Made by a program: the position numbers and the translations under genes. This document shows, piece after piece, positions 6,239 through 45,284 of a DNA stretch of 64,000 nt (the stretch's first letter is position 1; every line of letters starts with the position of its first letter). The notes under the pieces are model-generated. The model worked only from the letters and a program-made list of their open reading frames with translations. It did no database searches and had not been told where the DNA came from. The DNA is from Mariniblastus sp. (GTDB taxonomy: Bacteria; Planctomycetota; Planctomycetia; Pirellulales; Pirellulaceae), in contig JAQWLH010000156.1 of the NCBI GenBank assembly GCA_029247405.1, positions 1 through 64,000 of the forward strand, in the 5' to 3' direction.

Positions 6239-7549
6239 TTAACTGATCAATCCATTGAGCAAATTGCCATCACGGACGACCGAGATAGGCCGGCCGATCG
6301 ATGTTTGATACTCTTTGCGATGATCGATGCCAAGTGTTCTGAAAAAGGTTGCGGCAACGTCTTCAGGCTTGATGAGATCATGCTTTGGTCCTGCCGCCTT
6401 TTCGTCGCTTTCACCAATGATTTGGCCGCCATTAACCGGGCCACCGCCCATGAGCATAAACATGCAACGAGGGTAGTGATCCCGCCCACCTTCGGCCGAT
6501 CGGGTGTTGATCTTGGGGGTCCGGCCGAACTCGCCAGAGACATAAACGGTGGTTGAATCAAGCAAGCCTTTTTGTGCCAAACCGTTAAATAGACCCGACA
6601 GCCCTGCGTCAAGCTTGGGAAGTAATGAGGTTGATAACTTGGTAAAGTTGTCAGAATGCGTATCCCATCCGCCTAGCGACACGGTTACGAATTTGACACC
6701 TGATTCGACCAGTCGCGAGGCCAGCAGGCAGCTTTGGCTGAAATCATCTTCCCCAAACAATTGGGTGAAACTGGGCGTCTCCTGACTAACATCGAAAGCC
6801 TTGCGAGCACGTTTGGACGTGATCATATTGAAAGCTTTTTGACTGAATTGATCCAACCCGCTCAGCAGGTCGTCCTGAGATTGGATTGAATCGAAGGTGC
6901 GATCGAGATCTTTTAAGAGGTTTTGACGTCGTTCGATTTCCTCGAGTGAAATTCCATTTCCTAACGAAATGCCGCGAACGTTAAACGGTTGCCCAACACG
7001 AGGCGCGGCATTAGTTTGGAGTGAGGCATACTTAACGCCAAGATGTCCGGGCCCAATTTTTGCTCGCGGAATCGAAACGTAGGTCGGAAGATCTGAGATC
7101 GCCGGCATCTCGCGGGCAACGACACTGCCGTAGGCTGGATAGTCAAGCGAAGGATTGGGGCGGTTGCCAGTAAAGACAAATTGTTGTCCCAACGGATGAG
7201 CACCTAATGCATGCGAAACCCCTCGGACGATGGCGAACTTGTCAGCACACTGCGCCAATTTGGGCAAATGCTCAGAGATTTCAACACCCGGGACGTTCGT
7301 TTTGATCGGTTTAAACTTCCCTCTGAATTCCGATGGTGCATTTGGCTTGAGATCAAAAGTATCTAGGTGAGATGGGCCACCTGGCAATTCAATAAAGATG
7401 GCTGCTTTGGATGAAGCCTTGGGATTCAATTCACCAGCGTCAGCCATTTGTAGGTAGTTGCTCATGGTCAGTCCCGTGGCTGAACCAAGAACACCAACCT
7501 TGATCGCATCTCGACGGGAAATTCCGTCGCACTGTCGATGTCTTGCCAT
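6239..7549 (-). CDS. DUF1501 family protein with Tat signal
   Basis: The 436-residue protein opens with a twin-arginine-type signal (SRRDAIKVGVLGSATGL), so it is probably exported folded. It continues with features typical of DUF1501, a family related to alkaline phosphatases and sulfatases: GGPSHLDTFDLKP, HLPKLAQ, VRGVSHALGAHPLGQ, a GGWDTH segment and a C-terminal GRDHYP. In planctomycetes these proteins are encoded next to DUF1549/DUF1553 cytochrome-type proteins, as here (92 bases after the 7642-10470 gene), and the two presumably work together in the periplasm. The biochemical activity is not established. It is the last gene of the minus-strand operon headed by the ECF sigma factor. Confidence 0.9.
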   Translation of the reverse strand: MARHRQCDGISRRDAIKVGVLGSATGLTMSNYLQMADAGELNPKASSKAAIFIELPGGPSHLDTFDLKPNAPSEFRGKFKPIKTNVPGVEISEHLPKLAQCADKFAIVRGVSHALGAHPLGQQFVFTGNRPNPSLDYPAYGSVVAREMPAISDLPTYVSIPRAKIGPGHLGVKYASLQTNAAPRVGQPFNVRGISLGNGISLEEIERRQNLLKDLDRTFDSIQSQDDLLSGLDQFSQKAFNMITSKRARKAFDVSQETPSFTQLFGEDDFSQSCLLASRLVESGVKFVTVSLGGWDTHSDNFTKLSTSLLPKLDAGLSGLFNGLAQKGLLDSTTVYVSGEFGRTPKINTRSAEGGRDHYPRCMFMLMGGGPVNGGQIIGESDEKAAGPKHDLIKPEDVAATFFRTLGIDHRKEYQTSIGRPISVVRDGNLLNGLIS

Positions 7550-7641
7550 TTTCTTTCCTGTTTAAAAAACGTGAATGGTACTTGGATTGGGCAAACACAA
7601 GTCTTGGAAGTGGACAAGCAATGCCTAGTTTTCAATTTGTC

Positions 7642-10470
7642 CTAATGGTTGACGATAAATTCTTTGGTGTTGACCAATGCCCACATAACCCCAGTTACGC
7701 CATTGATCAAATCTTTGTCACCACGAATGTGAGCTTCGCAGCGAGTGAGTTCAGTTTCGGAGGGAAGCCGGCTAAGGGTTCGCAGATAAGCTTCGGTAAC
7801 GAATTCTCTCAGATTCAGTTCAACCTTCTGTTTTTCCGCCACCGCGATCTTGTCTCGAATGGGCTGGGTTTTTTTTATGGCCTTGTCAATCTGGTTTTGC
7901 ATTTTTTGGGCTTGCCGGTCGTTGCCAGCGGCAACCAGTTTTTGATGATTTTTCTTCATCGAAGAAATTCGTTTCTCTTGACTGGCAAGCTGGCGTTTTT
8001 CTGTGTCAGCAACCGATTTTGCCTGATGTTTCGCGGCCAATTGATTGAGCCAACTGTTCTTTCGCGTAAGCATCAAGTGAATGTCACGGTCGTTTTGCAT
8101 GTAGACCGTTTGGATCAAGCTTGTTTCGTCAGAGCGATCGCAATCGCAACTGCTGGCACGCTCCGAACGACCAAAAACACGAAGTGCAAAGGCAGAGTCG
8201 GTTGCACCCTTCTTTTTATTTCCATAGTTGGTCACCGTCCCGGGGATGGAAATGGCACGTCCTTCGACATCGTTGCGAAATTCGCTGTTCGCCTCGGGGT
8301 TTGAGGCGGCAAACGTTATTGCATCAAAAATGACTTCGGCTGGGAGTCTGCGAGGCAATGCCCGACTGAAATTTCGACGATCGTTAACGTTGGTTTCATT
8401 GGTCACCCAGCTCAACTGATAAGTTCGGCTGTTGGCAATCTCGCGATGCAACCACTTGAGATCAAAGTCTTGCTTGATAAATTCCGTGGCCAAGTAATCA
8501 AGTAGGGCGGCATTGCTCGGTGGATTGGCCATGTTCAAGTCGTCTGCCGGATCCACAATCCCAACTCCAAAATAGTTTTTCCAAACACGATTCACTAACG
8601 CGGTGGCGAAGAATGGATTATCGGGACGGCGCATCCACTCCATGACCGGTACGCGTACGTCTTCGTAGTCAGCTAATTCGACGGTTTCTGCCCCCAAGAG
8701 TCTGGCGTCTTTGACCGTTGGTTTGGGAATGCGCTGGGGCTTTTCGCCTTTTTTCTTTTTTTGTTTTTTACTTGCTTTGACTTTGTTTGAGTATTCTTTG
8801 AGTTCCTCTCGAGTTGGTTTTGGCTCGTGGACCGCCAAGAATCCGTAGGGAGTCGTCTCCCCCTGTTTCATTGCAACCAATAGCTTTTTGCGAAGGTTAC
8901 CTCGGTTCTTGTCTTTGGGGTCGATGTCCAGATTTTCAAGTATTTTTGCGAAGTCGTCTTTATCTTCCTGCGTTCGGCCACCGTTGTAGCTCTGTAACGA
9001 AACACCGGAAAAGAATTTTGAGAATTGCTTGAAATCGTCTTGGCTCCACTGATCAAAGGGATGTTTGTGGCATTGAGCACATTGAATTCGAAGCCCCAAA
9101 AAAGCGTGGGCAAAACTGATCGCCCGAGTGTCACGTGTTTGAAACTCTCGCCGCATCCAGTAGTAAGGCATGGAGTCGGTTTTGGCGTAATCACCTGCTT
9201 GACGGTTTAGCTGGGTCATGCGGTCGCAATAGTCGATATAACGCTCGCCAGGTTGGCGATTGATCCCCGTGACAATTCCTTCGATCATGTCGTCATAAGG
9301 AACATTTTTTTCAACCCGCTGATGGATCCAGTTGTACCACTGGTTGCTTGCGGAGTTGTTGTTGTACGAAATGTTGCGTAACTGCGACGTGTTGTTTTCG
9401 GTCATGTCGCAAAAGAAAGTCGTCCACCAAGCGACGTAGGCGGGTGATTCTAGGAGTTGGTCTATTTTCTTTTTGCGCTTGTCCGGATCTTGACTGGCTA
9501 AAAACTCGCGAATCTCCGCGGAAGTTGGAAGTGTCCCGGTAATGTCAAGAATGACCCGTCGGAGAAACATTGAGTCGTCAGAAAGTGGCGAGGGCTCAAC
9601 CCCCAGCTTGGCCCATTTCTGGGCAACTAATTGGTCGACGCGCGTGGGAGTTTTGAATTTGACTGCCAAATCGGAAGAGCGTTTGGCAATTGGATGAATC
9701 ACAGGAACGGGGACGACGGCGTTGTCATAGGAAACAACGACATGGGTATCCCCCGGTGTCGATTTCGTTGAGACATCTCCTTCTTCGCTAATGATTGCGA
9801 TTGAATCATCGTTGGAATGGAACCGACAAAGGGGGGTGACGTCTTCGATGGTTCCGTCTGCCCAGTGTGCGATTGCCTTCAGTTCAATGCTCTGCTCTGG
9901 ATCAAGAATTTGAATGTCACTTGGTTCAACCACCAAACGATCGAGTTGGTGAATTTTTTCAGGGGTTTTGGCTCCGTTATTAATCCAGGCGGAGAGGAGG
10001 TTAAATTGCCAGCTTCCTTTTTCGTAGCGAAGTCCACCTTCGTGGTTGTCTTCGTCGGTTGGTTTAGTCAGAACGAGGCTCTCTGCCGGGAATTCAAGGT
10101 TGACACGATCGTCTGCCAGAAGTGCTTCGTGATCAGCTTTAAAGTCATACCCGAATAAAGAAAGCTGGAACCCCCCCTGCCCTTGGAATGATCCATGGCA
10201 CGCGCGACCGTTGCAACCAAGACGTCCGAGTAGGGGAGCAACATGCTTCTGGAAATCAGGAGTCTCGTCCTCTGGGATGATTTTGAAGCGATCAATAACA
10301 CTCTTGCTGGCGTTGTTTTTAGCTTCAGAAACCGCGTGGTTCGATAAAGCTCGCTCGGACGCCGTTGGTTCATCCAAACAGCCCATTGCCAAGTTCACGC
10401 TGAGGAATAATGTGGAAATCGAAGCGAGAGCACTGACAATTTGCGTCGCTCTAAAATTACGTAGCTGCAC
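7642..10470 (-). CDS. Planctomycete DUF1549/DUF1553 protein with cytochrome-like and Ig-like domains
   Basis: From the GTG start the product is 942 residues with a signal sequence ending near AMGC, possibly a lipoprotein. A variant heme motif CNGRACH (86-92) lies in a planctomycete-cytochrome (PSCyt1-like) segment. A bacterial Ig-like domain follows (about residues 170-260), then DUF1549 with CAQCHKHPF, and a C-terminal DUF1553. Between the last two is a lysine-rich insertion containing KQKKKKGEKPQR. The start is decided by an AGGAG six bases before the GTG. The open frame extends further upstream to 10707, but that would overlap the preceding gene and bury the signal peptide. The family is thought to be periplasmic, redox-linked or polysaccharide-related, and is normally paired with DUF1501. 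Function is not proven. Confidence 0.88.
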   Translation of the reverse strand: MQLRNFRATQIVSALASISTLFLSVNLAMGCLDEPTASERALSNHAVSEAKNNASKSVIDRFKIIPEDETPDFQKHVAPLLGRLGCNGRACHGSFQGQGGFQLSLFGYDFKADHEALLADDRVNLEFPAESLVLTKPTDEDNHEGGLRYEKGSWQFNLLSAWINNGAKTPEKIHQLDRLVVEPSDIQILDPEQSIELKAIAHWADGTIEDVTPLCRFHSNDDSIAIISEEGDVSTKSTPGDTHVVVSYDNAVVPVPVIHPIAKRSSDLAVKFKTPTRVDQLVAQKWAKLGVEPSPLSDDSMFLRRVILDITGTLPTSAEIREFLASQDPDKRKKKIDQLLESPAYVAWWTTFFCDMTENNTSQLRNISYNNNSASNQWYNWIHQRVEKNVPYDDMIEGIVTGINRQPGERYIDYCDRMTQLNRQAGDYAKTDSMPYYWMRREFQTRDTRAISFAHAFLGLRIQCAQCHKHPFDQWSQDDFKQFSKFFSGVSLQSYNGGRTQEDKDDFAKILENLDIDPKDKNRGNLRKKLLVAMKQGETTPYGFLAVHEPKPTREELKEYSNKVKASKKQKKKKGEKPQRIPKPTVKDARLLGAETVELADYEDVRVPVMEWMRRPDNPFFATALVNRVWKNYFGVGIVDPADDLNMANPPSNAALLDYLATEFIKQDFDLKWLHREIANSRTYQLSWVTNETNVNDRRNFSRALPRRLPAEVIFDAITFAASNPEANSEFRNDVEGRAISIPGTVTNYGNKKKGATDSAFALRVFGRSERASSCDCDRSDETSLIQTVYMQNDRDIHLMLTRKNSWLNQLAAKHQAKSVADTEKRQLASQEKRISSMKKNHQKLVAAGNDRQAQKMQNQIDKAIKKTQPIRDKIAVAEKQKVELNLREFVTEAYLRTLSRLPSETELTRCEAHIRGDKDLINGVTGVMWALVNTKEFIVNH

Positions 10471-30794: not shown

Positions 30795-31610
30795 ATGAAG
30801 AAGAATGTATTTAGTAAGTTGGCATTGGTTGGATTTCTCGTCGGCAGTTTCGCTGCTTCGGCTTGCTTTGGCCAAGGTGGCGATTGGGGATCACTTACGG
30901 GGCAAATCGTGATTGACGGAGATGTGCCCAAGATGGCGCCCGAAGATGTCGAGGGGAATCCCGACAAGGCGGCCTGTTTGGTTGACGGTAAAATTCCGGT
31001 GGATGATGGCATTGTTGCCAATGATAAGAAGCAGTTGAGAGACGTTTTTGTCCTCATGTACGTCGGTCGCGGTGCAGCGGTTCCAGAAAAGTTCCATCCT
31101 TCTTATGACGAGACAAAGAAGGTCAAGTTAACTCTGGACAATCAAAAATGCCGCTTTGTGCCCAAATCTGTTTTTGCGAGAACTGGGCAGACATTGATTA
31201 TGAAAAACAGTGACGATGTTGGCCATAATTGCCACATCACGACTTTCCAGCAGGAACATAATATCAACATTCCGGCTGGTAAAGAAATTGAATTAAAACT
31301 TGAGGACACCCCTGATAAAATTCCTGGTGAGGTCCGTTGTGACATTCACAAGTGGATGGATTCAGTTATCTTCATTCGCGATAACCCTTACGTTGCGATC
31401 AGTGACGAAACAGGGAAGTTTAAAATTGAAAACATTCCGGCGGGTGATTGGAAGTTTCAGTTTTGGCACAAGAAGGCCGGTTATCTCAAGACGCTCGAAA
31501 TCAAAGGTTACACGCCCGATCGCCGGGGGTGCATTGAGGCGACGATTGCCAAAGATAAGTCTCTTGATTTGGGTGTTCTAAAACTCCCTGCCGAAGCGTT
31601 TACCAAGTAG
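30795..31610 (+). CDS. Secreted cupredoxin-like protein
   Basis: The 271-residue protein has a signal peptide (VGFLVGSFAASACFGQ) and then a beta-sandwich. The blue-copper ligand pattern is visible: His (VGHNCHITTF, H144 or H147), then after a loop C182-D-I-H185-K-W-M188. That is the Cys-x-x-His-x-x-Met-like arrangement of plastocyanin-type sites. A C-terminal segment (DETGKFKIENIPAGDWKF onward) resembles a carboxypeptidase-regulatory or SpaA-like repeat. Similar planctomycete proteins are often called methylamine utilization protein or plastocyanin domain. The likely role is periplasmic electron transfer or copper binding; the partner is unknown. A small lipoprotein gene follows 163 bases downstream. 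Confidence 0.8.
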   Translation: MKKNVFSKLALVGFLVGSFAASACFGQGGDWGSLTGQIVIDGDVPKMAPEDVEGNPDKAACLVDGKIPVDDGIVANDKKQLRDVFVLMYVGRGAAVPEKFHPSYDETKKVKLTLDNQKCRFVPKSVFARTGQTLIMKNSDDVGHNCHITTFQQEHNINIPAGKEIELKLEDTPDKIPGEVRCDIHKWMDSVIFIRDNPYVAISDETGKFKIENIPAGDWKFQFWHKKAGYLKTLEIKGYTPDRRGCIEATIAKDKSLDLGVLKLPAEAFTK

Positions 31611-36127: not shown

Positions 36128-37432
36128 ATGAACGATGCCTACAATCGGGGCCAACCAGACATTGGAAATTCTTTGTTTCGTAATCTCCCTTATCTAATAT
36201 CGATCGCCGCCTGTTTCTTAATCATACCGGGCTGTGAAAAGTCTCCACCCGTCAATTTTCGTTTCAATGAAGTGGAATGGATCAGGCAGAAGCGAAGCAT
36301 TAGTGCGGAGCTTTTTGACGACCGCTACAAGACTGAAATTGGCACCATTCTGACAACATTGTTCGGAACTCCTGACGAACCCAAGTTCCCTTACTTTCTG
36401 AACGAACAGGCGAAGGAAGTCATCAGTTTCGCAAATCTTGAGATGGCCGCTGGAGCCGTTAAGAGCGACCGGCAGGGTGAGCCGAGGGGGCTTTATCGCG
36501 AGCACTGTGCCCACTGCCATGGAATCACCGGTGACGGAGCTGGACCGACATCGCAAATGCTCAATCCGTATCCGCGAGATTTCCGGCTTTCAAAGTTCAA
36601 GTTCAAGTCGACTCCTCTGCGGCAGCCGCCGACGGATCACGATCTTCGCACGATCCTTAAGAACGGAATCCCCGGCACAGCCATGCCTTCATTTCGTACT
36701 TTGCCTGACGAACAAATCGAGGCATTGGTTCATTACGTCAAGTATTTGACGTTGCGTGGTCAGTTGGAACGTTTTTTAATTTCGGAGGTTGCCGCGCTTG
36801 ATGGGCAGTCAATCATCGACATGAGTCTACTCGCTTCAGCCCAAGAGAGTGAAACGACTGCTGCAAAGGCACGGGAGCAGTTCGAGGAACAAGTGTATTC
36901 CATGATCGGCGTCCCGCTTCAGGAGGACCTTTTACCCAAGTGGATCAATCCTGAGCGAAAAATCTTAAAGGTACCACCCGCTCCGGCGATGTTTCAGGAA
37001 TCCCATGCAGGGCATCAACAGTTCGTTGATGAGGGCCGTAAGTTGTTCTATTCCAAAGCTAACTGCAAGCAATGCCACGGTGAGACGGGTATGGGAGATG
37101 GCCAGCTTGGATTTGATGATTGGACCAACGATTGGTTAAAATCAGCGAACGTGCTTGAGCCGGCTAGTTACGCGGACTTCATTGCGGCGGGGGCTTTGCC
37201 ACCAAGGCAAGTCAAGCCGCGAAATTTGCATCTGTCTGTTTACCGTGGAGGGGGGCATCCCAACGATATCTATCTGCGAGTCGCCAACGGAATTGAAGGA
37301 ACACCGATGCCGGCCTCGACGATCTTGACGACGGAGGAGACCTGGAAAATTGTGGCCTACGTTTTATCCCTGCCTTACCAAGATTCGAAATCGAGCCAAT
37401 CGTCGGTCAGCGAAAAGGGAATTGCTCGATAA
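36128..37432 (+). CDS. Diheme cytochrome c lipoprotein of the oxidase cluster
   Basis: The 434-residue protein has a hydrophobic signal ending IIPGC36, a plausible lipoprotein cleavage site, a helical lead region, and two cytochrome c domains. Heme motif 1 is CAHCH (127-131) with a likely Met ligand in GTAMPSF. Heme motif 2 is CKQCH (313-317) with Met in the C-terminal GTPMPAS. Periplasmic or surface-bound, it is the first gene of the oxidase cluster and would be the obvious electron donor to subunit I, especially since no CuA-bearing subunit II is present. Similar proteins with an EHCxHCHGITGDG opening accompany planctomycete oxidase clusters (from memory). The start at ATG 36128 follows a weak purine-rich stretch. 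Confidence 0.9.
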   Translation: MNDAYNRGQPDIGNSLFRNLPYLISIAACFLIIPGCEKSPPVNFRFNEVEWIRQKRSISAELFDDRYKTEIGTILTTLFGTPDEPKFPYFLNEQAKEVISFANLEMAAGAVKSDRQGEPRGLYREHCAHCHGITGDGAGPTSQMLNPYPRDFRLSKFKFKSTPLRQPPTDHDLRTILKNGIPGTAMPSFRTLPDEQIEALVHYVKYLTLRGQLERFLISEVAALDGQSIIDMSLLASAQESETTAAKAREQFEEQVYSMIGVPLQEDLLPKWINPERKILKVPPAPAMFQESHAGHQQFVDEGRKLFYSKANCKQCHGETGMGDGQLGFDDWTNDWLKSANVLEPASYADFIAAGALPPRQVKPRNLHLSVYRGGGHPNDIYLRVANGIEGTPMPASTILTTEETWKIVAYVLSLPYQDSKSSQSSVSEKGIAR

Positions 37433-37462
37433 CCATGACTCGTTGCTGGAGCATTCTGTTTT

Positions 37463-37681
37463 TTAGCGTCCCGGTTTTGGGGGCATCACCTTTTTGATGG
37501 CGACGTATGGCGTCGGGCCCTCGGGATCTGCTTGGTTGACTGTGAGAGTTTCGACATTTGGTTTGCCGAGTAACATAACGCTGATCTGCCCGGTTTTTTG
37601 TCTGCGGAGACACCGTTGGTCCGTGTGGTCAAGGATGAGTTTGTGAACTTTGATTTTTGAAAATTGGACTCCAAGATTCAT
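37463..37681 (-). CDS. Possible small protein on the opposite strand, inside the oxidase cluster
   Basis: Within the 398-base gap between the cytochrome c gene and subunit I, the minus strand holds a 72-residue frame. Its residues have protein-like composition (QISVMLLGKPNVETLTVNQ, then EGPTPYVAIKKVMPPKPGR). I recognise no family. It may be a real small gene, a fragment of a larger one, or chance. Two other frames overlap the same region, which weakens the case. If real it would interrupt the cluster transcriptionally. Confidence 0.35.
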   Translation of the reverse strand: MNLGVQFSKIKVHKLILDHTDQRCLRRQKTGQISVMLLGKPNVETLTVNQADPEGPTPYVAIKKVMPPKPGR

Positions 37682-37830: not shown

Positions 37831-39570
37831 ATGCACCAAACGAACAATAATCGCTCAAAACAAGAACGTCAGAAGGGAAACTTTGTGACCCGGTTTTTGT
37901 TCAGGTTCGTGTTCGCAACCGATCATAAAATCATCGGATTGCAGTTTCTGTTTTCATCAATCATTTGGCTTTTTATTGGGGGCGGGTTGGCGCTCGCAGT
38001 ACGCTGGCAATTGGCCTGGCCATGGTCGGATATGCCGGTTTTTGGACCGATGCTGTTTGCGGATTCAGGAGGGAAGATAACGCCCGAATTCTACAATATG
38101 TTATTTACGATCCACGCCACAATTATGATTTTTTTCGTGGTCATTCCAATGCTATCCGGTGCATTTGGCAACTACCTGATCCCTTTAATGATTGGCGCGG
38201 AGGACATGGCGTTTCCTCGGCTCAATATGCTTAGCTACTGGTTCATGTGGCCAGCTTTTGCTTGCCTAATTATCAGTTTGTTTATGCCTGTCTATGGAGC
38301 CTCTGCGGGTTGGACGCCTTACCCTCCCTTAGGTGTTTTCCTGAGTGACGCGCAGACGATGTGGGTTCTGGCAATTCTATTTGTTAGCGTTTCGTCCATG
38401 TTGGGGGCGATCAATTGTTTGACGACGATCATTCAAATGCGGGCGCCTGGAATGACGATGTTTCGATTGCCGATGACGATTTGGGGTATGTTCATGACGG
38501 CGATTATTCAAGCTTTTGCTCTGCCCGTTCTCACGGCAACCGCTCTGATGCAATGGTCGGATCGTCTCTGGTGTACGGGGTTTTTTCTGCCAGAAAATCT
38601 AGCGATGGATTATGGAGTTGCTGCAAGCGGAGGGGGGCAGGTGCTGTTGTGGCAACACTTGTTCTGGTTCTATTCGCACCCCGCGGTTTACGTCATGATC
38701 CTACCTGCGATGGGCATGGTTTCAGATATGCTTTCTTGCCTATCTCGACAACCGTTGTTTGGCTACAAACCAATGGTTTACTCGATGGCCTCGATCGCTG
38801 GCCTAGGGGTCGTTGTTGGGGGGCAACCCATGTTCATCTCCGGAATGAATCAGACCTTGGCATTGAGTTTTATGGTTTCCACGATGCTGATTGCGTTGCC
38901 AAGTGGCGTGAAAGTTTTCAATTGGATTAGTACGGTTTGGGGAGGGCGACTGTATTTAACAACTTCGATGTTGTTTAGCCTTGGGTTTGTGTTGATGTTT
39001 GTGATCGGGGGATTGTCAGGCCTGGTGATGGCGTTGCCCCCCATAGCTACCATGGTCCACGACACTTTTTACATTGTTGCGCACCTGCATTACATGCTAT
39101 TTGGAAGCAGCTTGCTTGGAGTTTTTGGAGCGATTTATTTTTGGTTTCCCAAGATGTTTGGGCGCATGATGAACGAAAAAGTCGGTAAGCTCCATTTCTT
39201 TCTGACCTTTGTTTTTCTCAATGGCACTTTTTTTCCGATGCATTTTTTGAGCCGCATGCCTCGGCGAATGGCGGATCCGTATATTTCTGAAGCGATGAGG
39301 GATTTGCTGCCGCTCAACCAGTTCATGACAATTTGCGCAATTGGTATGGGATTCACCCAACTTTTATTTCTGGGAAATTTTTTGGGGAGCATGTTTTTCG
39401 GTCGTCGAGCAGAGCGAAATCCCTGGAACTCGAACACGTTGGAATGGGTGACGGCAACCCCGCCGCCGCATGGGAATTTTGAAGCCCAGCCGACGGTTTA
39501 TCGTGGTCCGTATGAGTACAGCTCCCCGGAGATGGAGGAAGATTATTTTCCCCAGACAATTGAAAATTAA
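37831..39570 (+). CDS. coxA: Heme-copper oxidase subunit I, A2-type, with two CuB histidines missing
   Basis: The 579-residue, 12-helix-type membrane protein matches aa3/caa3 subunit I throughout. It has DHKIIGLQFLF, heme a ligand H95 (FTIHATIMIFF), GAFGNYLIPLMIGAEDMAFPR, the A2-type motif YSHPAVY (281-287; CuB ligand H283 and Tyr287), PSGVKVFNW, and VHDTFYIVAHLHYMLFG with H418 (heme a3) and H420 (heme a). In family members the segment after the conserved VY helix reads V-V-W-A-H-H-M-F, and the two adjacent His bind CuB. Here it is V-V-G-G-Q332-P333-M-F (codons GGG GGG CAA CCC, 38818-38829). The reading frame is intact. If accurate, the CuB site has lost two of its three ligands and normal O2 reduction is doubtful. 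It sits in a full maturation operon but without subunit II. Confidence 0.92.
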   Translation: MHQTNNNRSKQERQKGNFVTRFLFRFVFATDHKIIGLQFLFSSIIWLFIGGGLALAVRWQLAWPWSDMPVFGPMLFADSGGKITPEFYNMLFTIHATIMIFFVVIPMLSGAFGNYLIPLMIGAEDMAFPRLNMLSYWFMWPAFACLIISLFMPVYGASAGWTPYPPLGVFLSDAQTMWVLAILFVSVSSMLGAINCLTTIIQMRAPGMTMFRLPMTIWGMFMTAIIQAFALPVLTATALMQWSDRLWCTGFFLPENLAMDYGVAASGGGQVLLWQHLFWFYSHPAVYVMILPAMGMVSDMLSCLSRQPLFGYKPMVYSMASIAGLGVVVGGQPMFISGMNQTLALSFMVSTMLIALPSGVKVFNWISTVWGGRLYLTTSMLFSLGFVLMFVIGGLSGLVMALPPIATMVHDTFYIVAHLHYMLFGSSLLGVFGAIYFWFPKMFGRMMNEKVGKLHFFLTFVFLNGTFFPMHFLSRMPRRMADPYISEAMRDLLPLNQFMTICAIGMGFTQLLFLGNFLGSMFFGRRAERNPWNSNTLEWVTATPPPHGNFEAQPTVYRGPYEYSSPEMEEDYFPQTIEN

Positions 39571-39737: not shown

Positions 39738-40775
39738 ATGACGATAGTCCTCGACAATCCGAACCAGCTTCAGAACCGACAACCGCATCGTGTTGCAGTC
39801 GTATTGGCTCTGGTGGTGTTTCCTTTAATCTGGGTCGGTGGCTTGGTGACGACCTACGATGCGGGGATGGCGGTTCCTGACTGGCCGGGGACTTATGGCT
39901 ACAACATGTTTTTGTATCCCGTCGAAACCTGGCTGTTCGGCCCGTTCGATCTCTTTGTCGAACACGGGCATCGCTTGCTTGGCTCACTTGCGGGAGTGGT
40001 CGCGATTGTCTTGGTGATCACGACGGTTCGGTATGATCCGAGGCGGTCGGTACGCTGGGCTTCGGGGGGACTCTTGTTTTTGGTGAGCCTTCAAGGTTGC
40101 CTTGGTGGGATGCGAGTCCTGCTCGATGCGCGAGTCCTTGCGAAGATTCACGGCTGTCTGGGGCCAGCATTTTTCGCTTTTGTGGTTGGCTTTTGTGCGG
40201 TTACTTCGAGGTGGTGGTTGACCCACGTCAATCCGTTTGAAAACCAGACCAAGCCGATTGCCGGTGCTTCCGGTTTGGCTTACTGGGCGGGGGCCATGTT
40301 GGTGATGAGTTTTGGCCAATTGGTAATTGGTGCGTTTTTAAGGCATATTTCTGTCACTTCGCCGGCTTACGTTTATCAATCATTGGTGGTCCTGCATGTT
40401 TCTGTGGCTGTCTTGTTAATCGTTGGAACTGTTATTCAGTGGTTTATCACGCGAATGCCACGTTTCCGAGGGCTCGGAATTAGAAGTTCGATAAATATTC
40501 TGATGCTGCTGATTTTGCTACAAGTTGGGCTTGGTTTCGGCACTTGGGTGGTCAAATTTGGCTGGCCGGTCTGGTTTTCCGAGCTTGGATTCGCGGCAGC
40601 ATTTGTGGTTGGCGAAAAAACTTTTATTCAAATGAACTTGATCACTGCTCATGTTGCCGTTGGCTCGCTAATATTGGCGTTATGGACTGTGCAGATTCTG
40701 CGGTGCAGAAGAGTACAAGGCGAAAAAATCCAAACAACAAACGCAGATTCGCCTAATATTGTGTCAAACCTTTAA
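39738..40775 (+). CDS. ctaA: Heme A synthase (COX15/CtaA)
   Basis: The 345-residue membrane protein converts heme O to heme A. Family marks include the N-terminal TYDAGMAVPDWPGTYGYN, EHGHRLLGSLAG (first His pair) and KIHGCLGPAFFAFV (next His), with further His in the second half (LVVLHVSVAVLL, LITAHVAVGS). About eight membrane spans are predicted. It is the heme A step for the neighbouring subunit I and is followed 15 bases later by ctaB, which makes its substrate heme O. The 167-base stretch before it has no gene. Confidence 0.93.
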   Translation: MTIVLDNPNQLQNRQPHRVAVVLALVVFPLIWVGGLVTTYDAGMAVPDWPGTYGYNMFLYPVETWLFGPFDLFVEHGHRLLGSLAGVVAIVLVITTVRYDPRRSVRWASGGLLFLVSLQGCLGGMRVLLDARVLAKIHGCLGPAFFAFVVGFCAVTSRWWLTHVNPFENQTKPIAGASGLAYWAGAMLVMSFGQLVIGAFLRHISVTSPAYVYQSLVVLHVSVAVLLIVGTVIQWFITRMPRFRGLGIRSSINILMLLILLQVGLGFGTWVVKFGWPVWFSELGFAAAFVVGEKTFIQMNLITAHVAVGSLILALWTVQILRCRRVQGEKIQTTNADSPNIVSNL

Positions 40776-40790
40776 CGACGAGTTAGTAAA

Positions 40791-41717
40791 ATGTCATCTT
40801 TGACGACCAGTCAAGAAAGTGCAAAAGTGAATTCGGCTCCCCAAGAAAAAACGCGTTTTCAGGCGTACGTAGAGCTGACGAAATTGCGCATCTCGGTAAT
40901 GGTTTTATTGACGTTTGCCGTTGCCGCATTTTTAGCGGCTGCAGAGGCCCAAGTTGGAATAAGTGTCATCTCGTTTCTTGGGGCCCTCGTCGGCATGCTA
41001 GGGGTCGCGTCGAGTGGCAATGCCATGAATATGTACCTTGAAAGATATTCAGATTTTCTGATGCCAAGAACGGCCGGTCGTCCACTGCCCGGCCAAAGAT
41101 TATCTTCGACCGAGGTTGCAACCTTCGGAGCGGTGTCTTTGGGTGTCGGGATGGGGTTTCTCTTAGCTCTTGTCAATTGGGAAACGGCAGCGTGTGGCTT
41201 GGCAAACTGGATTCTGTACGTCTTTATTTACACACCGCTCAAACGAAAAACTCACTTCAATACGGAAGTTGGAGCTGTGGCCGGTGCGATGCCGATTTTG
41301 ATGGGGTCTTTGGCGACCACGCAATCAGTTGGCTTGGTTGGCTGGGCGTTTTTCGGAGTGTTGCTACTTTGGCAATTTCCCCACTTCATGGCAATCGCTT
41401 GGATGTATCGTGACGATTATCGCAAAGGCGGGTTGAAAATGCTTACGGTGACCGAGCCGACGGGGGCGGCGGCGGGGCGGAAGTCTGTGATCACAGCCGT
41501 ATTGTTAATTTTGGTTAGCTTGATCCCAGCTCTGGCAATGTCGCCAGTTCAATTCTGGATTTTTTGTCTCGTCGCGATCCTGCTTGGTGTTTACTACCTC
41601 AAAGCTGCGATTGCCTTTAACGCCTCTCGGACGGAGGTGATCGCTCGTAAGCTGTTACGAGTTTCGATTATCTATTTGCCGCTTTACATGGTTTTGTTGG
41701 TAACGTGTTTGATTTAG
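40791..41717 (+). CDS. ctaB: Heme O synthase (protoheme IX farnesyltransferase)
   Basis: The 308-residue membrane prenyltransferase (UbiA superfamily) adds a farnesyl group to heme B to make heme O. The first Asp-rich-type motif reads NMYLERYSDFLMPRTAGRPLP, with Glu in place of the usual first Asp, a modest change. The second motif is YRDDYRKGGLKMLTV. Other family marks are TKLRISVMVLLTFAV at the N-terminus and WRKR-like LKRKTHFNTEVGAVAGAMP. It lies 15 bases after ctaA, and ctaA/ctaB together supply heme A for the adjacent oxidase subunit I. Confidence 0.93.
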   Translation: MSSLTTSQESAKVNSAPQEKTRFQAYVELTKLRISVMVLLTFAVAAFLAAAEAQVGISVISFLGALVGMLGVASSGNAMNMYLERYSDFLMPRTAGRPLPGQRLSSTEVATFGAVSLGVGMGFLLALVNWETAACGLANWILYVFIYTPLKRKTHFNTEVGAVAGAMPILMGSLATTQSVGLVGWAFFGVLLLWQFPHFMAIAWMYRDDYRKGGLKMLTVTEPTGAAAGRKSVITAVLLILVSLIPALAMSPVQFWIFCLVAILLGVYYLKAAIAFNASRTEVIARKLLRVSIIYLPLYMVLLVTCLI

Positions 41718-41747
41718 TTTTTGACAATTTCGCTTCCATCGAATTCT

Positions 41748-43052
41748 ATGAGCGTGTCGAGAACACAACTTGCTTCTGACCAATCTGGTACACAAGCCGA
41801 CGGTCGTGATTTGAATGACCCCGTTCATCTTGAGTATCAGCCCGCCGTGCCGGTCCCTAACGGAAAGTTGGCTGTCTGGCTGTTTCTCTCAATCGAATTG
41901 ATCTTTTTTACCGCGTTGATCGGGAGTTACATTTTTTTGCGATTCGGCGTGCCGAATGGCAGCTGGCCTTCACCTTACGTCGTGTGGGTCTTTCCCTGGT
42001 TGGGAGCGGTGAACACGTTTGTTTTAATTTGCTCCTCTGTCACCGTTGTATTCGCGGCGAAGGCTGCTCAACGTGATCGGGTGAAGACCTCCAAAAAATG
42101 GTTGGTTCTCGCATTCGTTTTAGGCTGTGTTTTCCTTGGCACCAAGGCTTATGAAGACAGCTCGAAATTTAAGCACGGAATCTATCCGGCGGCTCCTCGA
42201 AGTTTACTTTATGATCGAGCAGATTTGTATTATTTAGTGGCGGTAAAAGCGAGTCTGGATTCGCAAATTAGTGCACTTGGGGCTGCGGAGGCCGAGTCAA
42301 AGTTACTTGAACGTGAAAGCCGTGTGCCCCAATTCAAAACGTCTTTTAATAAGGCAGGCGACAATGAGTTGGAGCGTCTCGAGTTGATCCGCTCTGGGTT
42401 ACTTCGGTGGACTCAAATTAAAGTGAGGCAGGCGGGAAACCCGGAGATGCAGGAGCTGGCACTCGAAAGTCTGGCTCATCAAATCTACCCTCGCGGAAAA
42501 AATGAGCGAGTGAATAACTATCTCGCTGATGAACTGATAGAAACTCAGCAGCTTTTGATTGTTGAAGAAGTTGAGTTAGCTTTGGCAGAAAATAGGGTTC
42601 AAAAACTTCAGCGAGACATTGACGATCTCAACACCAAGTTGTCTCAATTCGGCAACGAGTCCAACCTGGAAGTTCAGCAGGAGCTGGTAGCCAAAACTCA
42701 GGAGGCTACAGAATGTGCAGCCAAGGCGAGTCGAATTGCCGCGAAAGTTTTACCCCTAAGCAATCGTGCCGATGCGATGCAGGAATTTGGTTCTCTGGAG
42801 TCAGGACTGAATGAACATTTTCAACTGCAGCTCCCCATGGTAATCCCCAATGGGAAAACCTGGGCCAGTACTTATTTCCTGCTGACTGGTTTTCACGCGT
42901 TGCATGTGGCTGGAGGGTTGGTTGGGTTTTTGTTCCTGATGCCGATGCGGTTGGGGCGGGGGCGAGCTGGGATTTTAGAAAATGTCGGCTTGTATTGGCA
43001 CTTTGCTGCGATTGTTTGGATCTTTTTGTTTCCTTTGTTGTATCTTTTCTGA
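41748..43052 (+). CDS. Oxidase subunit III with a large inserted coiled-coil domain
   Basis: Both ends match heme-copper oxidase subunit III. Residues 49-75 of the frame read from TTG 41721 ([20 protein letters not shown]) and the following two helices form the first part. The last two helices ([19 protein letters not shown] and [21 protein letters not shown]) form the second. Between them, from about 155 to 375, is a soluble, mostly helical, charged segment ([34 protein letters not shown]) that should be a coiled coil. Ordinary subunit III is about 200 residues; this one is 434 from the ATG at 41748. A TTG at 41721 (four bases after ctaB) would give 443. The insert could bring in a partner or replace a missing subunit; this is inference. 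Confidence 0.85.
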
Positions 43053-43421: not shown

Positions 43422-44663
43422 ATGGGTCCCAATCGGGAAGATGAGATGCGATACGCGATTCCAATAGTTTTGTGGAGCCTTGTAGCCATTGGCTTGGGGT
43501 GGTTTTGGTTTTTCTCCGAAGGCCAAGGCGACGGCGAGGTCAAGAACGGTCCCGTTGTAGGCCAGGCGTCTAACCCAGCGGGAACGGTGATCGACTCCGT
43601 TCCGTGGAAGCATCTCCCGGACGTGGATCCTTTTAAGTTGACAGATCAGAATGGCGATCTGTTTGATAGTTCTGAATTGGTTGGCAAACCGTATGTCGTG
43701 AGTTTTTTCTTTGCCAGTTGCCCCACGTTTTGCCGAGAGCTAAACAACGAACTTGATCGAGTTAATGGTCTTCTTAAAAAAACGGATCTGCGGTTTTTGA
43801 CGATAACTGTTGACCCGGAGAATGATTCGCCTGAGGTATTAAGCAAGTATGCTGAGGGATACGGGGCCGACCGTGACCGCTGGACATTTTTGACGGGGCA
43901 GAAGTACGAACTGGAGCGGATTGGTCAACACATGTTTAATGTGGTGGTGGATCGAGATACTCACACGGATAACATTCTGCTGGTCGATAAATGGGGCCGT
44001 TATCGCGATCGTTTCAAGTGGGATCAGCCGACGGATATGAAACGGTTTCTCGATGTTGCTAGAGAGGTTGCTGCCGAGACCGAACCACCACTAGACGAAA
44101 CTGTCAACACTCGAAATGTGCTGGCGGGGTACGAGTATCCCGACTTGGCCAACGTACCTTGGATTCGGGATTTTCATCTGACCGAGCGAAGCGGAAAAAA
44201 GTTTTTCTCCCGCGATTTGACCGGGGAGGTCTGGATCGCCAATTTCTTTTTTAGTTCATGCCCGGGGATCTGCAAAAAGCAGAATGAATATCTACGGGAT
44301 TTGCAAAAACGTTTAGGCGATAAATGTCCGCGAATTGTGAGTATGACGACGGATCCCACGACGGATACGCCCAGTCGTTTGCAGGAATTTGCCAAGACGT
44401 TAAATGCGGATCCTGAAAAATGGCTGTTTTGTACGGGTAAAAGCCTTTTGGTCAAGCGAATCGGAAGCGAGTTTTTCAAGGCCCACGCCACCGATGGCCA
44501 TCACTCATCGCAACTTTATGTGGTCGATCGTTGGGGGGAAGTTCGCGGCGATTTTGATTGGAGCGATGCGAACCAAGAAATTGAGATGCTCAAACTGGTC
44601 GAGCAGTTGCGTGCAGAAGATCGTCCCCAAAAAACTGTGGCCTCGCCACAGGGTGAACGGTAA
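43422..44663 (+). CDS. Tandem SCO1/SenC protein, membrane-anchored
   Basis: The 413-residue protein has an N-terminal membrane anchor (about 10-31) and two SCO thioredoxin-fold domains. Domain 1 carries the copper motif C100-P-T-F-C104 and H181. Domain 2 carries C280-P-G-I-C284 and a His at 360 or 361 (DGHHSSQLY). SCO proteins deliver copper to CuA on oxidase subunit II or act as thiol oxidoreductases for that site. A tandem in one chain is not the usual single-domain form. Both copper sites look complete, although the cluster shows no CuA subunit and subunit I has lost two CuB ligands. An alternative start is the ATG at 43446 (residue 9), which follows a purine-rich stretch. Confidence 0.9.
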   Translation: MGPNREDEMRYAIPIVLWSLVAIGLGWFWFFSEGQGDGEVKNGPVVGQASNPAGTVIDSVPWKHLPDVDPFKLTDQNGDLFDSSELVGKPYVVSFFFASCPTFCRELNNELDRVNGLLKKTDLRFLTITVDPENDSPEVLSKYAEGYGADRDRWTFLTGQKYELERIGQHMFNVVVDRDTHTDNILLVDKWGRYRDRFKWDQPTDMKRFLDVAREVAAETEPPLDETVNTRNVLAGYEYPDLANVPWIRDFHLTERSGKKFFSRDLTGEVWIANFFFSSCPGICKKQNEYLRDLQKRLGDKCPRIVSMTTDPTTDTPSRLQEFAKTLNADPEKWLFCTGKSLLVKRIGSEFFKAHATDGHHSSQLYVVDRWGEVRGDFDWSDANQEIEMLKLVEQLRAEDRPQKTVASPQGER

Positions 44664-44723: not shown

Positions 44724-45284
44724 ATGAGTCATCAAGAGTATCTACAACAACCGGCAAACGTTGCCCTTGGGAAAAAGTTGACCATTGCGACTTGGGTCGT
44801 GACCGTATTGGTCTGGGCCCTGGTGGGGGCGATGCGGCGGCCAGAAAAAATACCCCTCCCAGAGGGGATGAGTCTCAGCTTTCTGCCGGCGGTTCATGCG
44901 TGCTTGAATTCGTTGGTGGCGATTTTTCTTGTGACGGCGTTGGTGACAATTAAGCGAAAAAACGTTCGATTACACAAGCTCGCTATCACCGCAGCTATGA
45001 CCTGCTCGGCGTTGTTTCTGGTTTGTTATGTGGCCTACCACTTCACCACCGAGGAGACGAAGTTCGGAGGAGAAGGCATGATCAAGTCTGTTTATTTGCT
45101 TGTTCTGATCTCACACATCGTCACAGCCGCCTTGAGCTTGCCATTTATCCTTCTGACTTGGATCTACGGATTCACAAATCAATTTCAAAGACATCGGAAA
45201 ATGGCGAAACGGGTGTTTCCTGTTTGGTTATACGTCGCGGTGACGGGTCCAATTTGTTACCTCATGCTTCGCCCCTACTATTAG
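44724..45284 (+). CDS. DUF420 membrane protein (CtaM/YozB-like)
   Basis: The 186-residue protein has about five membrane spans and the DUF420 pattern: LPAVHACLNSLVAIFLV, VRLHKLAITAAMTCSALFLV, YVAYHFTTEETKFGGEG, and SHIVTAALSLPFILLTW. These carry the family's conserved His residues. DUF420 proteins of Firmicutes (CtaM, YozB) are needed for aa3-type oxidase maturation, and here the gene closes the oxidase cluster 60 bases after the SCO gene. The role is transferred from family and context. Confidence 0.85.
   Translation: MSHQEYLQQPANVALGKKLTIATWVVTVLVWALVGAMRRPEKIPLPEGMSLSFLPAVHACLNSLVAIFLVTALVTIKRKNVRLHKLAITAAMTCSALFLVCYVAYHFTTEETKFGGEGMIKSVYLLVLISHIVTAALSLPFILLTWIYGFTNQFQRHRKMAKRVFPVWLYVAVTGPICYLMLRPYY

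Follow-up and report, generated by a model that had tools for sequence, protein, structure and literature searches.

Subunit III (COX III) of a planctomycete A2-type oxidase carries a helical insert of 220 residues between its third and fourth transmembrane helices (TM3 and TM4). The gene lies in a stretch of 64,000 nucleotides from Mariniblastus sp., hereinafter designated the window. In the reading that we hold to be somewhat better than even, the insert would be a lineage-wide docking insert in the periplasm, and the oxidase of the window itself would be catalytically lost, with its remaining open genes under weaker constraint and a caa3-type oxidase respiring. The loss of CuA and CuB ligands next to intact genes for the membrane subunits is more surprising than the insert itself. 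The genes and remnants of the operon are the following:

36128–37432, + strand: diheme cytochrome c, apparent lipoprotein, neighbour of the oxidase (PF00034/PF13442; same position in orthologues)
37435–37541, + strand: 5' remnant of COX II with a one-base deletion (frameshift) (nhmmer, tblastn)
37550–37630, + strand: probable 3' remnant of COX II (nhmmer E 0.21 alone but colinear; tblastn)
37831–39570, + strand: COX I, A2-type (YSHP), CuB His-His replaced by Gln-Pro (PF00115; orthologue alignment)
38818–38832, + strand: GGQPM replacing the CuB motif WGHHM (orthologue alignment)
39738–40775, + strand: CtaA/COX15 heme a synthase (PF02628)
40791–41717, + strand: CtaB heme o synthase (TIGR01473, above cut-off)
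41721–43052, + strand: COX III with five-transmembrane (5-TM) core, insert-bearing (PF00510; PDB chains CtaE/CyoC; AlphaFold2 core)
42186–42845, + strand: 220-residue helical insert in the loop joining TM3 to TM4, predicted to be periplasmic (spacing, AlphaFold2, orthologues)
43422–44663, + strand: SCO1/SenC copper chaperone, two-domain (PF02630, two stretches)
44724–45284, + strand: DUF420 membrane protein (PF04238)

The COX III open reading frame is 443 residues long. Its true start is probably the ATG at 41748 (Met10), because the aligned start of the orthologues is Met10; the nine preceding residues would then be untranslated. Residues about 47–154 and 376–442 give two separate matches to 5-TM COX III, both in PF00510 (E 1.7e-11, above the cut-off) and in PDB chains, where the sequence matches are to actinobacterial CtaE and E. 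coli CyoC. The core of the AlphaFold2 model superposes on M. smegmatis CtaE (9qef_J) with Z of 21.8 and root-mean-square deviation (RMSD) of 2.3 Å over 179 residues, and on bovine subunit III residues 74–259 with Z of 20.2. Both the family profile and the fold of the transmembrane core thus place the protein in the 5-TM COX III family. It carries the TGxHxxH and ENxGLYWHFxDxVW motifs, with the Asp of WHFVD replaced by Ala. Compared with CtaE and CyoC, the transmembrane core is the same, while the window protein has 220 more residues between TM3 and TM4.

A sequence-only reading of this DNA had proposed such an insert of about 220 residues, and the insert is real. Specifically, the family match is in two pieces, and the spacing from E145 to T389 (the Glu to TGxHxxH) is 243 residues, compared with 23 in most of the 5-TM COX III that the same scan covered in other phyla; the insert therefore amounts to 220 residues (about 156–375). 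AlphaFold2, run on COX III with 28 sequences (mean pLDDT 86), predicts five helices in this block (169–199, 209–237, 241–255, 262–309, and 316–356), with pLDDT mostly 90–98, and a short strand pair at its base. Helices 262–309 and 316–356 form a long antiparallel hairpin. The model of a congeneric orthologue has the same layout with five helices, so that a helical insert is predicted in two proteins. The proposal that the insert is a coiled coil survives only in part: the long hairpin and a modest heptad periodicity over residues 268–347 (p = 0.03) agree with it, whereas the periodicity over the whole insert is weak (p = 0.14). The predicted structure is better described as a helical bundle that includes a long antiparallel hairpin. 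Searched alone against PDB and Pfam, the insert gave weak, chance-like coiled-coil matches and no convincing family, and no second copy was found when it was searched against its own genome. Foldseek and VIA-align matches of the whole COX III model were dominated by the transmembrane core.

In the established topology of bovine subunit III, the loop between TM V and TM VI is on the outer (P) side of the membrane. Because the core aligns to bovine residues 74–259, the insert corresponds to this loop and is predicted by homology to lie on the periplasmic (P) side. The TM2-TM3 loop of COX III is basic, which agrees with a P-side insert by the positive-inside rule. The helices of the model and the bovine homology together support the earlier suggestion that the insert lies on one side of the membrane.

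Relatives of the window carry the insert as well. A COX I search covered 60 genomes, that of the window among them, and most of these carry a window-type oxidase. The insert is present in all 36 COX III proteins of the order that were measured (window included), with 98–393 extra residues and a median of about 210; in the orthologue alignment both of its ends are conserved, unlike the middle. By this comparison of orthologues, the insert is standard for the window-type oxidase across the planctomycete order and is not unique to the window. The largest insert in the order (L065 5785–7572; 393 extra residues) is rich in Glu, Gln, Ala, and Leu. A phylum-wide sample has 0–188 extra residues at the site, with continuous variation, and most COX III of other phyla have no extra residues in the TM3-TM4 loop. 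In the open-access literature we found no description of subunit III insertions, or of decayed oxidases, in planctomycetes. A paper on PVC signatures lists small indels among cytochrome c oxidase proteins; the one protein identified is cbb3-type subunit 1, and none is stated for subunit III.

The same loop is enlarged in other proteins. Two Bacteroidota subunit III proteins have 110 (Lutibacter, L142) and 73 (Flavobacteriia, L126) extra residues there; by inspection these inserts look strand- and turn-rich, whereas that of the window is helical, and they are probably independent of the planctomycete insert. In the COX III of the caa3 operon of the window's own genome (contig C259; L010 2773–3867), the loop is enlarged by about 151 residues. 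Unlike the helical insert of the window, this one reads as two hydrophobic segments and a His/Asp-rich stretch. Judged from these sequences, the TM3-TM4 loop of COX III is an insertion hot spot, and the helical version is characteristic of the planctomycete A2-type oxidase.

We propose that the insert is a lineage-wide, length-variable α-helical domain in the periplasmic TM3-TM4 loop, and that as an arm in the periplasm it would keep subunits I and II close to the diheme cytochrome c of the oxidase itself or to another respiratory complex. Oxidases are known to contact their partners through subunit III. Specifically, the supercomplex of alternative complex III (ACIII) and oxidase in F. johnsoniae has 5-TM subunit III as its contact surface, and CtaE/F makes the contact in M. 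smegmatis (reviewed in PMC8361435). Wherever an insert-bearing planctomycete locus extends far enough, the gene before an unfused COX II encodes a cytochrome c, in most cases a diheme one. On the strength of this neighbouring gene and of the F. johnsoniae contact, a docking-arm role is plausible by analogy, and our best inference is a putative scaffold on which the oxidase would hold its own diheme cytochrome c or a supercomplex partner. A large periplasmic helical arm across the planctomycete order would give a testable idea of how cytochrome c is tied to the oxidase.

The main rival of a docking arm is that the insert is a tolerated loop expansion without a specific partner. Such an expansion would fit the length, which is continuous in the phylum and ranges widely in the order, and the fact that the insert evolves faster than the transmembrane core (dN 0.47 and 0.23, respectively, to the sister L042). 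However, its ends are conserved, the models of two orthologues show helices with high confidence, and at least 98 residues are kept in every measured orthologue of the order, so that we regard a loop without a partner as rather unlikely. The sequence-only reading had also suggested that the insert could stand in for a missing subunit, and the window operon indeed has no intact COX II. This suggestion fails, because orthologues with intact COX II bear inserts of the same size. In addition, the insert is all-helical, and no CuA or haem motif was seen in it. Compensation for subunit II, of which the window keeps a truncated remnant, is barely credible, and we retain the putative docking arm.

In the extracted orthologous loci, within the limits set by contig ends and ORF detection, the gene order is diheme cytochrome c, COX II, COX I, CtaA, CtaB, and COX III, with SCO and DUF420 further on. 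Where the orthologues have COX II between cytochrome c and COX I, about 400 nt are left in the window. The 5' remnant aligns to nucleotides 1–108 of congeneric COX II genes (nhmmer E 1.6e-14 over the 64 kb window), the probable 3' remnant has a match near the 3' end that is weak by itself but colinear (tblastn E from about 2e-5 to about 6e-5 when the search was small), and the CuA domain between them is missing. The operon thus lacks the subunit II with a CuA site that is expected of an active A-family oxygen reductase. The sole COX II domain found in the window genome is that of the caa3 operon; because this genome is a MAG of 302 contigs and 84% complete, there may be an unsampled COX II elsewhere.

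The active site of COX I is also altered; the sequence-only reading of the insert mentions neither this change nor the COX II remnant. WGHHM is found in all aligned orthologues covering the site except one (L061), and its replacement by GGQPM in the window involved several substitutions. Of the three CuB His ligands of an active oxidase, one (in HPAVY) is kept and two are lost. The His ligands of haem a and a3 (FTIHATIM, VAHLHYM), the His and Tyr of HPAVY, and the Lys of VKVFNW are all kept. Compared with A2-type (YSHP) oxidases, the window COX I therefore has the same fold family and all these residues but is without two CuB histidines, and its COX II partner is a remnant. Taken from the genes, the window oxidase is unable to reduce oxygen in the normal way, its CuA domain and two CuB ligands being lost, and the intact caa3 oxidase of contig C259 presumably sustains respiration. 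In the nitric oxide reductase side families eNOR, sNOR, and gNOR, Q, N, or D takes the place of the active-site Tyr (Table A4, PMC8756737); because this Tyr is kept in HPAVY, identity with these families was rejected for COX I.

The damage extends beyond the metal sites. Among the positions at which all other sequences agree, the window has changed 18 of 245 (COX I) and 8 of 60 (COX III); the median of the other sequences is 0. Because dS is saturated in most pairs, branch dN was used instead of dN/dS. Relative to L042, branch dN of the window is 3.0-fold for COX I, 1.7-fold for COX III, and 1.6-fold for cytochrome c, and about 1-fold for CtaB, SCO, and DUF420. In a simulation, the chance that the window's own excess would arise neutrally without a stop is about 0.02. 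Sequencing or assembly errors might account for the loss of CuB and the truncation of COX II in an oxidase that works, and a fragmented, incomplete MAG leaves room for them. However, the flanking genes are intact and evolve at a normal rate, the changes are scattered across both COX I and COX III, and an independent genome shows the same pattern. An origin in such errors is accordingly very improbable.

This second genome (G025) is of the same genus and consists of a single contig of 6.6 Mb. Its diheme cytochrome c gene is followed by a COX I of 592 residues (L061 2621–4399), with no COX II between; the gap holds a weak COX II-like remnant (tblastn E 0.006). COX I has RPAAY for HPAVY, CAHQQ for WGHHM, and VADLH for VAHLH, so that it has substitutions at two CuB ligands and at the haem a3 ligand and retains both low-spin haem a histidines. 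For COX III, insert included, an uninterrupted frame of 426 residues lies next to CtaA, CtaB, and SCO, away from COX I. A relative of this genome, G016, has ordinary COX I and COX II. Because the window groups with L042, and G025 with G016, in the trees of both cytochrome c and COX I, the losses in the window and in G025 are independent. Two further genomes, G010 and G021, looked divergent but were rejected as damaged cases because they retain WGHHM and COX II.

Branch dN of COX I is 0.223 in G025 and 0.035 in G016, which corresponds to about 254 extra non-synonymous changes in G025, whereas that of cytochrome c is equal (0.098 and 0.093). In the simulation, the probability of about 254 neutral changes in COX I without a stop is about 0.0005. 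The COX III of G025 has an excess of about 153 non-synonymous changes. At 142 COX III positions that are invariant in seven others, G025 has changed 41 and the window 18; 13 of these are common to both (hypergeometric P 6e-5), several with the same new residue, and in COX I 18 changed positions are common (P 0.012), the positions in both overlap tests having been chosen after the sequences were seen. These arguments on selection are simple counts and one simulation model.

One explanation of the two cases is a decaying pseudogene cluster caught midway, in which COX I and COX III are unbroken by chance. In its favour are the broken COX II, the loss of many invariant residues from COX I and COX III, the TAG within the COX I of L042, and four congeners that show only a caa3-type oxidase. 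From the last two points, the window-type oxidase is dispensable in the genus, which speaks against a retained role. Decay by itself does not readily account for the open frames of COX I and COX III, given the low neutral chances for the window and for G025 COX I, for the excess of changes in G025 COX III, or for the coincidence of COX III changes in the two genomes. We place it a little short of even. Complete release from constraint is disfavoured because of the shared changed positions and the open frames in both genomes.

The simplest reading is that in the window and G025 the oxygen-reducing role is gone, and COX I and COX III keep part of the old constraint. In the window, COX I, the insert-bearing COX III, and cytochrome c would remain as uninterrupted genes on which constraint has changed and weakened. 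Such partial constraint would mean either slow, partial decay or a retained non-catalytic role. Tentatively, the A2-type oxidase may have become a retained non-catalytic complex at least twice in the genus: COX II and the oxygen-reducing site would have been lost, and another role, for example in electron transfer, structure, or assembly, would have preserved the diheme cytochrome c, the COX III with its arm, and a COX I that still has the low-spin haem a ligands. If this is true and the proteins are made, the oxidases of the window and G025 would be pseudo-oxidases that automatic annotation misreads as working.

The TAG of L042 lies in COX I (7007–8701, − strand), exactly at the codon of the active-site Tyr (HPAV*IMILP), in a locus with intact COX II; it is either a nonsense mutation or a sequencing error. 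In the four congeners, only COX II of the caa3 type was seen.

The presence of two SCO domains in one chain (43422–44663) is shared with congeners. Window positions 30795–31610 and L061 113–916 encode similar-looking secreted proteins with cupredoxin-like His/Cys motifs and no Pfam match, and in G025 this gene is directly upstream of the diheme cytochrome c. The operon is split in G016 (L056, L206) and in G025 (L061, L207): cytochrome c and COX I, together with COX II in G016, are in one place, and CtaA, CtaB, COX III, and SCO are in another.
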